This document shows positions 983 through 13,181 of a stretch of DNA of 13,181 nucleotides, in pieces; the stretch's first letter is position 1, and each line of letters starts with the position of its first letter. The stretch comes from Desulfobacterales bacterium. GTDB lineage: Bacteria > Desulfobacterota > Desulfobacteria > Desulfobacterales > UBA5852. The notes beneath the pieces were generated by a model. The model did no database searches, had not been told where the DNA came from, and saw nothing but the letters and a program-made list of their open reading frames with translations. The position numbers and the translations under genes were made by a program. The stretch covers positions 1 to 13,181 of the forward strand of contig JASJBQ010000066.1 of NCBI GenBank assembly GCA_030066455.1. The letters are read 5' to 3'.

Positions 983-2167
983 GTGATCGTTTTTTGTGAA
1001 GAATGCGGACGACAGCATGAGATCCGACGCCCGCAGGGCTGCGGCCAAGAGGCCCTGCTGGCCTGCGACGGCTGTAAGGAGACTCTCAAAGTCCCCGCTA
1101 CGGCCTCCGCAGTCGCGACGCCCTCCGTGGCGCCCATTCGGCTCATGATCGTCGACGATTCCCGCCTGATCCGCACGGTGGTCCGTCAGATGTTTGACGC
1201 CGACGACCAGGTGCAGGTGGTGGGCGAGGCGGCCAACGGTCGCGAGGCCCTTCAAATGCTTTCGGAAATCGCGCCCGACGTGATCACGCTGGATATCAAG
1301 ATGCCGGAAATGGACGGTTTGTCCACCCTGAAACACATCATGATCAAGCGCCCCACCCCCACCGTCATGATCAGCGCCCTGACCCGTGAAGGGGCCACCG
1401 AAACCTTCGACGCCCTGCGCTTCGGGGCCATCGATTTCATGCCCAAGCCATCCCAGCGCGAGGACGCGAGCCTCGAAGACCAAGAGCGCGAAATCAAACG
1501 CAAGGTCAGGCTGGCCGCCGGAATCAAGATGGACAACGTGCGCCTGCTACGCACCCGTCCGACCAACGGGGGCACCCCCGCATCCGCCATCGAGCGCTGT
1601 GTCGTGTTCGGGGCCTCGGAAGGCGGCTACGGCGCCCTGCTCAAAATCATCCCCCAGCTCGATCCGGCCTGGCCGGCGACCTACCTGGCGATTTTATACG
1701 CCGCCGAGGCGCACCTCGACGCGTTCGTGGATTACCTCGACGCCCACAGTGCGATTCGCGTCCGACGGGCCGTGGACGACGCCCCCCTCGAGGGGGGCAC
1801 CTGCTATCTGGCCTCGGGCGGGGAATATGTCACGGCCGTCCGGGGCGACGGCCGGACGACCCTGCGCGTCCACGCCTCGCCCTTTCCCGAACGCCGCGGG
1901 GCCATCAACATGCTCATGCTGTCCGTCTCCGAGGTGATGGCCGCCCGCACGGTGGCCGTCGTGCTCACCGGCAAGGACGAGGACGGGGCGGAAGGCGCCG
2001 CCGAAATCGCCCGCATCGGGGGACAAGTGATGATCCAGACCCCCAAGACCTGCCTATTCAAGGAAATGGCGCTGTCCGCCCTCCAGTTGTGCCGGAGCGG
2101 CCGGCAGCTCAACGATTCGGAAATCGCCCCGGCGATACAAAACCTTTTCAACGATCAACACCACTGA
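983..2167 (+). CDS. CheB-like response regulator with N-terminal zinc ribbon; esterase triad incomplete
   Basis: A 394-residue protein starting at GTG with an AGGGAG Shine-Dalgarno nine bases upstream; no better start covers the zinc ribbon. Residues 1-35 look like a short zinc ribbon (C5-x2-C8 and C28-x2-C31). Residues 52-165 are a receiver domain with the acidic pair D58/D59, phospho-acceptor D104, S131 and K155, all intact. The C-terminal part (about 205-390) is the CheB methylesterase fold: GASEGG carries S212 at the nucleophile position and GKDEDG carries D334 at the Asp position. The QHMPP motif with the catalytic His reads LYAAE, so His is replaced by Tyr239 (or Leu238 if aligned with one shift). 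A normal CheB removes methyl groups from receptor glutamates when phosphorylated by CheA; this one probably cannot, or does so poorly. H244, five residues on, is the only nearby candidate substitute. It sits 16 bases before the receptor gene and looks like the first gene of the che operon. Confidence 0.85.
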   Translation: MIVFCEECGRQHEIRRPQGCGQEALLACDGCKETLKVPATASAVATPSVAPIRLMIVDDSRLIRTVVRQMFDADDQVQVVGEAANGREALQMLSEIAPDVITLDIKMPEMDGLSTLKHIMIKRPTPTVMISALTREGATETFDALRFGAIDFMPKPSQREDASLEDQEREIKRKVRLAAGIKMDNVRLLRTRPTNGGTPASAIERCVVFGASEGGYGALLKIIPQLDPAWPATYLAILYAAEAHLDAFVDYLDAHSAIRVRRAVDDAPLEGGTCYLASGGEYVTAVRGDGRTTLRVHASPFPERRGAINMLMLSVSEVMAARTVAVVLTGKDEDGAEGAAEIARIGGQVMIQTPKTCLFKEMALSALQLCRSGRQLNDSEIAPAIQNLFNDQHH

Positions 2168-2183
2168 TTGGGAGGAAAGACCC

Positions 2184-12341: not shown

Positions 12342-13181
12342 AAAACACCCCGATCCGCGGCTTGCGGCCGGGGCGGAGCTGCCGCTCCCGGAAAACGCTT
12401 CGGCGGAGGACATCAAGGTGCTTGTCGTGGACGACGCCGCCTTCATGCGCAAAGCCATCGTGGACGTGCTTGCCAGCGACGCGCAATTGCGCATCGTCGG
12501 CACCGCCCGCAACGGCCAGGAAGGCCTGGATCTGATCAAGGCGCTCGCGCCCGACGTGGTCACGCTGGACATCGACATGCCCATCATGGACGGGCTGACC
12601 AGCATCCGGCACATCATGATCGAATCACCCGTCCCGATCGTGGTGCTGAGCTCGCTCTTCAGCGACGGGGCCATCACCTTCGATGCCCTCCGGCTGGGCG
12701 TGGTCGACTTCATTCCCAAACCGTCGGGGGCGGTATCGACCGACATCGAACAATCCCGGCAGCAGCTCATCGACCGCATCAAACTGGCCAGTGCGGTGAA
12801 CCTCGACAACATCCGCCGCGTGCGGCTCAACCGCTGGGACCGGCAGGCCCATTTTTCCGATCTCTACGGGTATCATCCGCTGGAATACCTGCTGACCCTC
12901 GGCACCACCCTGAGTGGTCCCAACACGGTCATCCGGATGCTCGCCAACCTGCCGCCCACGCTGCCGGCCGCGGTGGTGGCCGTGCAGGAGATATCCCCCA
13001 AGATCATCGGCGCGTTCGTGGAACAGTTCGACGCCTCGGTGCCCTGGCGTATTCGTGAAGCCCGGGACGGCATGCCTATCGAGCAGGGCACCTGCTATAT
13101 CAGCTCCTACCAGAACGCCGTGCGCATTCAGACGAATGCCGAGGGCGTGCCCTGCCTCCAGGCGGTCGGCCCGGCCGAGGT
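12286..13181 (+). CDS. Third receiver + CheB-like protein, 3' end beyond window; esterase residues altered
   Basis: Open from ATG 12286 to the window edge (298 codons), overlapping the previous gene by 56 bases in another frame. Residues 1-42 are a proline/alanine-rich leader without a recognisable domain. Residues 43-165 form an intact receiver: D49/D50, phospho-acceptor D95 in VTLDIDMP, S122 and K145. A linker LASAVNLDNIRRVR follows, like LAAGIKMDNVRLLR in the first CheB-like protein. The CheB domain starts near 200. GASTGG reads GTTLSG, putting T208 at the nucleophile position, and QHMPP reads QEISP, putting E235 at the His position. DGMPIEQGTCYI at 261-272 matches the usual DGE-L-PG-YIAP strand. 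The Asp-triad region lies outside. On the visible evidence it is a second- or third-generation paralog that has lost esterase activity but kept phosphorylation control. Family call is firm; inactivity is inferred. Confidence 0.85.
   Translation, partial: MKNVNLKTLPHALPPGAAEKHPDPRLAAGAELPLPENASAEDIKVLVVDDAAFMRKAIVDVLASDAQLRIVGTARNGQEGLDLIKALAPDVVTLDIDMPIMDGLTSIRHIMIESPVPIVVLSSLFSDGAITFDALRLGVVDFIPKPSGAVSTDIEQSRQQLIDRIKLASAVNLDNIRRVRLNRWDRQAHFSDLYGYHPLEYLLTLGTTLSGPNTVIRMLANLPPTLPAAVVAVQEISPKIIGAFVEQFDASVPWRIREARDGMPIEQGTCYISSYQNAVRIQTNAEGVPCLQAVGPAE

Follow-up and report, generated by a model that had tools for sequence, protein, structure and literature searches.

Introduction

CheB, in which a receiver is joined to a methylesterase/deamidase domain, is the textbook response regulator with an enzyme output. 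The catalytic triad of Salmonella CheB is S164/H190/D286, and these residues were confirmed in our alignment. Non-enzymatic, phosphorylatable chemotaxis proteins are also known: CheV joins a CheW-like domain to a receiver, and it acts as an adaptor. Here we analyse a chemosensory gene cluster on a 13,181-nucleotide stretch of a Desulfobacterales bacterium (GCA_030066455.1, contig JASJBQ010000066.1, hereafter the window) that encodes three CheB-like proteins, CheB1, CheB2 and CheB3. The analysis suggests that the trio arose from an adaptation enzyme whose copies became binding switches under phosphate control.

A figure legend gives the triad of a related CheB as S165-H191-D287 (PMC7698151). 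Phosphorylation opens the two domains of E. coli-type CheB; a phospho-mimic CheB with its catalytic Ser replaced by Ala binds a pentapeptide-less receptor as well as the active form does, and a phosphorylation-dependent pentapeptide site has been modelled at CheB residues 130–140 (PMC8609364). CheR-TPR proteins, which carry an N-terminal TPR, have been suggested to be inactive methyltransferases (PMC3447774), and the ParA-like proteins ParC and PpfA position chemosensory arrays (PMC5706961). For non-catalytic CheB families we found no description among the open-access papers that our searches listed, the nearest case being the possibly inactive CheR-TPR (PMC3447774).

The trio shares with the CheB methylesterase (PF01339 plus receiver; PDB 1A2O, 6YMZ) its domain arrangement, fold and acceptor Asp, and is likewise encoded with CheA, CheW, CheY and a methyl-accepting chemotaxis protein (MCP). 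It differs in that the window copies lack the triad and fall below the NCBIfam cut-offs, in that window-type clusters lack CheR, and in that their receptors mostly lack the methylation consensus. As proposed here, its members would be non-enzymatic and phosphorylatable like CheV, but their second domain has the CheB and not the CheW fold, and there are three paralogs. The CheR-TPR proteins are also adaptation-enzyme homologs with non-conserved catalytic residues, but they derive from CheR and comprise four sequences, whereas here three co-encoded families derive from CheB. Most window-type relatives have a ParA-type ATPase gene in the chemosensory cluster, after cheB3 (or cheB2), which recalls ParC/PpfA; unlike those, the relatives' ATPase carries an N-terminal MJ0042 zinc ribbon. 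Compared with SsuABC/TauABC importers and TauE/SafE exporters, what is distinctive is the physical union with a chemosensory cluster, and the ABC proteins lie below NCBIfam cut-offs. If our reading is correct, the locus shows how, across many Desulfobacterota, evolution has made a signalling output from an adaptation enzyme, and it offers a test of whether chemosensory arrays run without methylation.

Results

The original prediction described three CheB-like proteins in a single che cluster, each with a broken triad. All three open reading frames are present where it placed them, and none aligns a Ser-His-Asp (S-H-D) triad with that of Salmonella CheB. At sites 164/190/286 of the Salmonella protein, CheB1 reads S212/Y239/D334, CheB2 G415/S442/G539 and CheB3 T208/E235/D327. 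The earlier residue calls were right for CheB1 and one residue off for the CheB2 nucleophile, as G415 lies under S164 and C416 under T165. Completing the third gene beyond the window end with protein P0241 bore out T208/E235 and revealed that its Asp, D327, is intact in GIGNDG. The receivers are complete in all three proteins, with acceptor Asp D104, D304 and D95, as had been claimed. Pfam CheB_methylest scores 113.7, 76.6 and 52 bits in CheB1 to CheB3 (the third cut by the window) against a cut-off of 24, and Response_reg scores 81, 79.3 and 73.8 bits on the receivers against 30.2. All three proteins fall below the NCBIfam CheB cut-offs (NF001965, 293 bits; NF009206, 342 bits), scoring 255.8/208.2 for CheB1, 196.1/186 for CheB2 and 252.2/222.3 for full-length CheB3.

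We read the triad sites in 120 listed homologs per family, taken from 2969 (CheB1), 481 (CheB2) and 3830 (CheB3) matches among about 8000 scored candidates each; lower-ranking matches may be ordinary CheBs. CheB2 has Gly at site 164 in all 120, Ser or Thr at 190 in 101 and Gly at 286 in 108. CheB3 has Thr (103), Ser (14) or Asn (3) at 164, Glu (118) or Asp (2) at 190, and Asp at 286 in 118. CheB1 is mostly S-Y-D (78), followed by S-H-D (17), A-Y-D (10), A-H-D (9), C-H-D (4), P-Y-D (1) and G-Y-D (1), so that site 164 is Ser in 95 and Ala, Cys, Pro or Gly in 25. D334 is kept in 90% or more of 95 aligned rows. H244, five residues past the 190 site, is His in 94 and Tyr in 22 of the listed proteins, and 14 have Tyr at both candidate His sites. 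Orthologs with an intact triad, which the original prediction had named as evidence against itself, thus exist as a CheB1 minority, with further examples at loci L002, L003, L027, L155 and L156, and number 0 of 120 in each of CheB2 and CheB3. As a control, all 30 other CheB domains from the 15 cluster genomes read S-H-D (extra-cluster matches at E up to 2.2e-50, minus one 43-position fragment, G008:C338; 25 readings were tabulated and five, L082, L090, L102, L104 and L106, were made by eye from translations).

Loss of catalysis has good support in CheB2 and CheB3, and in CheB1 it is likely. The proposal of CheB-derived families that keep the phospho-switch without the methylesterase triad holds most clearly for the former two; a minority of CheB1 proteins keeps S-H-D.

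After de-duplication, the acceptor Asp is present in 99 of 100 CheB1 rows (the other has a gap), in all 109 CheB2 rows and in all 87 CheB3 rows. Conservation of receiver and CheB domain amounts to 0.76/0.69, 0.76/0.53 and 0.83/0.71 in the three families, respectively. We compared the twenty old motif columns with random columns of the CheB domain (5000 draws). In CheB2 the motif columns reach 0.73 against 0.53, a value matched by none of the 5000 draws, and in CheB3 0.86 against 0.71, matched by a fraction of 0.0012; CheB1, at 0.76 against 0.69 (0.07), is less clear. Since these columns exceed the domain average, the site in CheB2 and CheB3 has been kept in altered form and not eroded. In a tree of 95 CheB1 rows built with motif columns removed, Ser changes 7 times and His 11 times. 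The pairing (17 Ser with His, 55 Ser with another residue, 12 another residue with His, 11 neither) is not in favour of joint retention (Fisher odds ratio 0.28, p 0.018, uncorrected for kinship), and the five independent Ser/His pairs are too few for a test. Independent change of the two residues is expected if catalysis is not under selection. In predicted models, CheB1 and CheB3 retain the two-domain fold and superpose on CheB.

A linker after the receiver had been described as common to the three proteins. The likeness is evident between CheB1 and CheB3 and weaker in CheB2; taken as a stretch, the linker does not exceed the remainder of the protein in conservation. In CheB1 and CheB3 it lies at the same place as residues 130–140 of E. 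coli-type CheB, and N175, R178 and V179 of CheB3 are invariant in 96 rows.

That catalysis was lost three times over is not borne out. All pseudo-CheBs lie on one side of a branch separating them from 30 canonical rows (SH-aLRT 95), which makes a common pseudo-CheB ancestor possible, in a quick CheB-domain tree of 155 columns with motif columns removed and with long branches. A frame filter removed 6 of 30 canonical domains from it (L086, L088, L089, L097, L102, L108), and a motif filter removed 9 of the 14 CheBs from other phyla.

The eight genes of the window form one plus-strand cluster, cheB1-mcp-cheW-cheY-HAMP-only gene-cheA-cheB2-cheB3. The trio recurs in related genomes, as the original prediction invited one to look for, with substitutions conserved within families. 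A scan of species genomes with the CheB2 alignment yielded at least 79 loci. Gene order was read from 34 of them (L001–L033, L037) and 13 stretches of other genomes, one of which is the L001 place, giving 46 distinct loci, many on short contigs. The order cheB1-mcp-cheW-cheY-(HAMP)-cheA-cheB2-cheB3 recurs in Desulfobacterales and relatives, with all seven core genes in 15 of the 46 loci. Among 291 sampled genomes of the order of Desulfosarcina alkanivorans, with just the top 4 to 7 candidates scored per genome, 37 encode a CheB3-type protein (E up to 1e-110) and 50 have a CheB2-profile match (E up to 1e-70), 42 of the latter reaching 1e-100. Across the phylum the CheB3 profile matches 15 of 395 genomes at E up to 1e-80; two of these matches are ordinary S-H-D CheBs (L152, L153), and more distant clusters contribute T-E-D, N-E-D, S-D-D or Q-E-D versions. 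Two proteins named Candidatus Contendobacter also fall in the CheB1 and CheB3 families. Distant clusters (L022, L151, L148–L150) also encode extra CheB-like proteins, with triad sites such as A-S-E, S-G-E, G-A-D and Q-E-D.

Three features of these clusters are new relative to the original prediction: the absence of CheR, the scarcity of the receptor methylation consensus, and linked transporter genes, the last seen in relatives past the part covered by the window. No CheR match lies on the cluster contig in any of the first 15 genomes (within 65 kilobases (kb) in the two complete ones), and absence on fragments such as G183 and G403 says little; among 11 further genomes, three (G028, G066, G131) have one. 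In G028 and G066 a single cluster combines an S-H-D CheB with S-D-D and A-Y-D pseudo-CheBs. A sister lineage with cheR and a catalytic CheB alongside pseudo-CheBs speaks against simple decay. Four draft genomes (G011, G015, G252, G369) contain no CheB match besides the trio, and none of the four has a CheD or FliG match; CheR matches are absent from G015, G252 and G369, and CheB1 reads S-Y-D in G011, G015 and G252. FliG is without a match in 8 of 23 genomes, and PilT scores above cut-off in 22 of 23.

The methylation consensus was scored as [ASTG]2-x2-[EQ]2-x2-[ASTG]2. Of 18 cluster MCPs, 2 were left unparsed, and 4 of the 16 parsed ones carry it in their signalling domain (window, L001 and L002 near -103, L016 at +155); the window receptor has a single match, at -103 from the tip, and no xZxxZ-type pentapeptide at its C-terminus. 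Among 18 other MCPs of D. alkanivorans, of which 5 were left unparsed, 11 of the 13 parsed ones carry it (mostly at -86, -58 and +82/83), and the cluster receptor of that species has no match. Among the genes read, no window-type cluster has more than one for a receptor. The cluster of Desulfatitalea alkaliphila (L014) yielded no MCP; the genome's best-scoring MCP by Pfam lies elsewhere (G010:C67:155617) and is perhaps a remote receptor of this cluster.

Past the point where the window cuts CheB3, all genomic context comes from relatives. There the cluster runs on into genes for a ParA-type ATPase that bears an MJ0042 zinc ribbon at its N-terminus, often for a TauE/SafE permease and another HAMP-only protein, and for an ABC permease, an ATPase and an NMT1/SsuA-like binding protein. 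ABC genes are found in 20 of the 46 loci (19 directly and L149 through its extension L161). When at least 3 kb of sequence past the last cheB2 or cheB3 is required, 28 loci qualify, the ordinary-CheB loci L152 and L153 among them, and 16 of the 28 have ABC genes. The set contains 16 close-type loci, whose CheB2 scores at least 300 bits against that of the window. The genes for ABC permease, ATPase and binding protein are all present in 15 of these 16, as is the ParA-like gene in 15, and TauE is present in 11; the exception is L012. L032, L033 and L149/L161 carry their ABC genes upstream of cheB1. The ParA-like proteins of L003 and L001 match the AAA_31/CbiA P-loop at 169.5 and 170.4 bits (cut-off 27). 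The nearest Pfam and NCBIfam families of the L003 downstream genes are SsuABC/TauABC-type importers and TauE/SafE exporters, the ABC proteins scoring below cut-off (SsuA family 114.4/163.5, SaoP 166/295, SaoA 220.7/360 in NCBIfam). A named transporter substrate was considered and set aside: these proteins, though of the same superfamily, miss the cut-offs of all NCBIfam models listed. The recurring union with a transporter offers a direct hypothesis for the role of the array in genomes without a match to FliG, the flagellar switch gene.

Discussion

With moderate confidence, and from sequence comparison, we propose that the trio are conserved CheB homologs without catalytic activity, through which a chemosensory array that does without methylation delivers its phosphorylation-gated output. 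CheA would phosphorylate the retained receiver Asp of each protein; phosphorylation would undock the receiver from the CheB domain, as in CheB, and expose the inter-domain linker together with what was once the active-site cleft; these may bind a partner in place of methyl ester hydrolysis. The likeliest partners would be the unmethylated receptor or membrane proteins encoded at the locus, such as the HAMP proteins, TauE, and the ABC permease or ATPase; our first candidate targets are the transporter and those membrane proteins that recur. This proposal draws on the triad lost in CheB2 and CheB3 and drifting in CheB1, the retained receivers, the conserved motif positions of CheB2 and CheB3, the fold kept in the CheB1 and CheB3 models, the lack of a CheR find in window-type clusters and the recurring transporter linkage. 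We read the trio as phospho-gated binders because the Ser-to-Ala phospho-mimic still binds and because the linker occupies the same place. That the methylation-free pathway, through its CheB-derived trio with one PATAN-fused member, controls the co-encoded ABC importer and TauE-type exporter, and so steers transport rather than or besides motility, is a more tentative extension that we regard as possible but doubtful.

Several observations weigh against these proposals. CheR and a catalytic CheB are encoded elsewhere in most genomes and could act in trans. In G369, a draft genome without another CheB, CheB1 (L155) reads S-H-D, as do 17 of the 120 listed CheB1 homologs, and H244 is His in 94 of 120. 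The Ser-to-Ala CheB has lower affinity for a pentapeptide-bearing receptor, ascribed there to a shift towards the closed form (PMC8609364). With conservation not above average, the linker was rejected as a specially conserved docking site. The clusters of D. alkanivorans and D. widdelii (mcp-cheB1-cheW-cheY-cheA-cheB2) do without cheB3. No transporter genes occur in the 8.9 kb after cheB3 of L012; L146/L158 and L147/L159 have HAMP and TauE inside the cluster with no ABC genes seen, and no transporter linkage appears in the sequence read of L023, L028, L148 and L151.

The receptor-target version of our proposal, in which the phosphorylated pseudo-CheBs bind unmethylated receptor helices and damp CheA as feedback adaptation without methylation, strikes us as rather unlikely. 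The binding of the inactive phospho-mimic to a pentapeptide-less receptor (PMC8609364) speaks for it, as do the single receptor gene at most and the lack of CheR in window-type clusters; against it, the window receptor lacks the xZxxZ pentapeptide and cluster receptors mostly lack methylation-consensus sites for the CheB surface. We think it unlikely, too, that some of the proteins are still enzymes, CheB1 through S212, H244 as base and D334, or CheB3 through its Thr/Glu/Asp pocket in another reaction. The frequency of Ser 212, His 244 and D334, the S-H-D minority of CheB1, and the strongly conserved CheB3 pocket with E235 in 118 of 120 would all fit such activity, but the CheB1 Ser gives way to Ala, Cys, Pro or Gly and changes independently of His190, both candidate His sites can be Tyr, and the Asn found at site 164 of three CheB3 proteins is no nucleophile.

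A scheme in which the CheB domains are inert and only the receivers matter, as phosphate sinks drawing CheA phosphoryl groups away from CheY, is improbable in our view. In its favour, conservation is higher in the receiver than in the CheB domain of every family, but an inert domain should lose its motifs and fold first, whereas the CheB2 and CheB3 motifs stand above their domain average and the CheB1 and CheB3 models superpose on CheB. Ordinary pseudogene-like decay of duplicated CheB copies is very improbable: the CheB1 states do drift (S/A, Y/H), but open frames, gene order and family-specific substitutions are maintained over many lineages, CheB3-type proteins recur in the order sampled, and sister clusters encode pseudo-CheBs side by side with an S-H-D CheB.

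Annotation of the cluster

Table 1 Coordinates of the cluster genes in the window and of two downstream genes in relatives (L001, L003)
Feature	Position	Strand	Remarks
CheB1	983..2167	+	394 amino acids (aa); N-terminal zinc-ribbon-like segment, receiver, linker, CheB domain
MCP (mcp)	2184..4799	+	Cache_3-Cache_2 sensor, HAMP, MCP signalling domain
CheW	4866..5399	+	Pfam CheW 134.9 bits
CheY-like single receiver	5468..5821	+	Pfam Response_reg 86.3 bits
HAMP-only protein	5890..6591	+	Pfam HAMP 57.7 bits, sole Pfam domain
CheA	6673..10524	+	1283 aa, two Hpt stretches
CheB2	10554..12341	+	595 aa; receiver-like segment, DUF4388 (PATAN), receiver, CheB domain
CheB3	12286..13181	+	cut by window end; receiver, linker, CheB domain
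ParA-like ATPase with MJ0042 zinc ribbon	L003:13008-13952; L001:12898-13857
HAMP-only protein of the second kind	L003:13957-14595		beside TauE

The N-terminus of CheB1 has the zinc-ribbon-like pattern C-x2-C...C-x2-C (Pfam Zn_ribbon_4 11.2 bits, below cut-off), which a simple Cys pattern recovers in 66 of the 120 listed homologs; the zinc ribbon of the ParA-like proteins shows a similar Cys pattern. DUF4388, the PATAN domain, scores 69.4 bits in CheB2 (cut-off 25). The second receiver-like segment of CheB2 is N-terminal (residues 1 to about 115, nucleotides 10554 to about 10900) and has no acceptor motif; by a simple pattern, 10 of 77 long homologs have the motif there, and in several lineages CheB2 begins downstream of this segment. 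The open frame of CheB3 starts at 12283/12286, and the full-length protein P0241 has 384 aa and is 100% identical over the window part. From 12286 the gene would overlap the end of cheB2 by 56 bases (12286–12341), and as many CheB3 homologs have 345–346 aa (about 38 codons fewer), the true start is unsure.

CheA carries a long region with repeated acidic segments between its two Hpt stretches, and its length in apparently whole relatives ranges from 868 to 1665 aa. Some relatives have a similar gene at the position of the window HAMP-only gene. The HAMP-only proteins are of two kinds, one among the che genes and one next to TauE. On the plus strand, the open frame at 156–791 weakly matches IS1595/ISXO2-type transposases (15.8 bits, cut-off 27) and has a counterpart upstream of cheB1 in L001 as well (228-bit match). 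An 885-aa open frame antisense to mcp (2148–4805, minus strand) is probably a by-product of codon composition.
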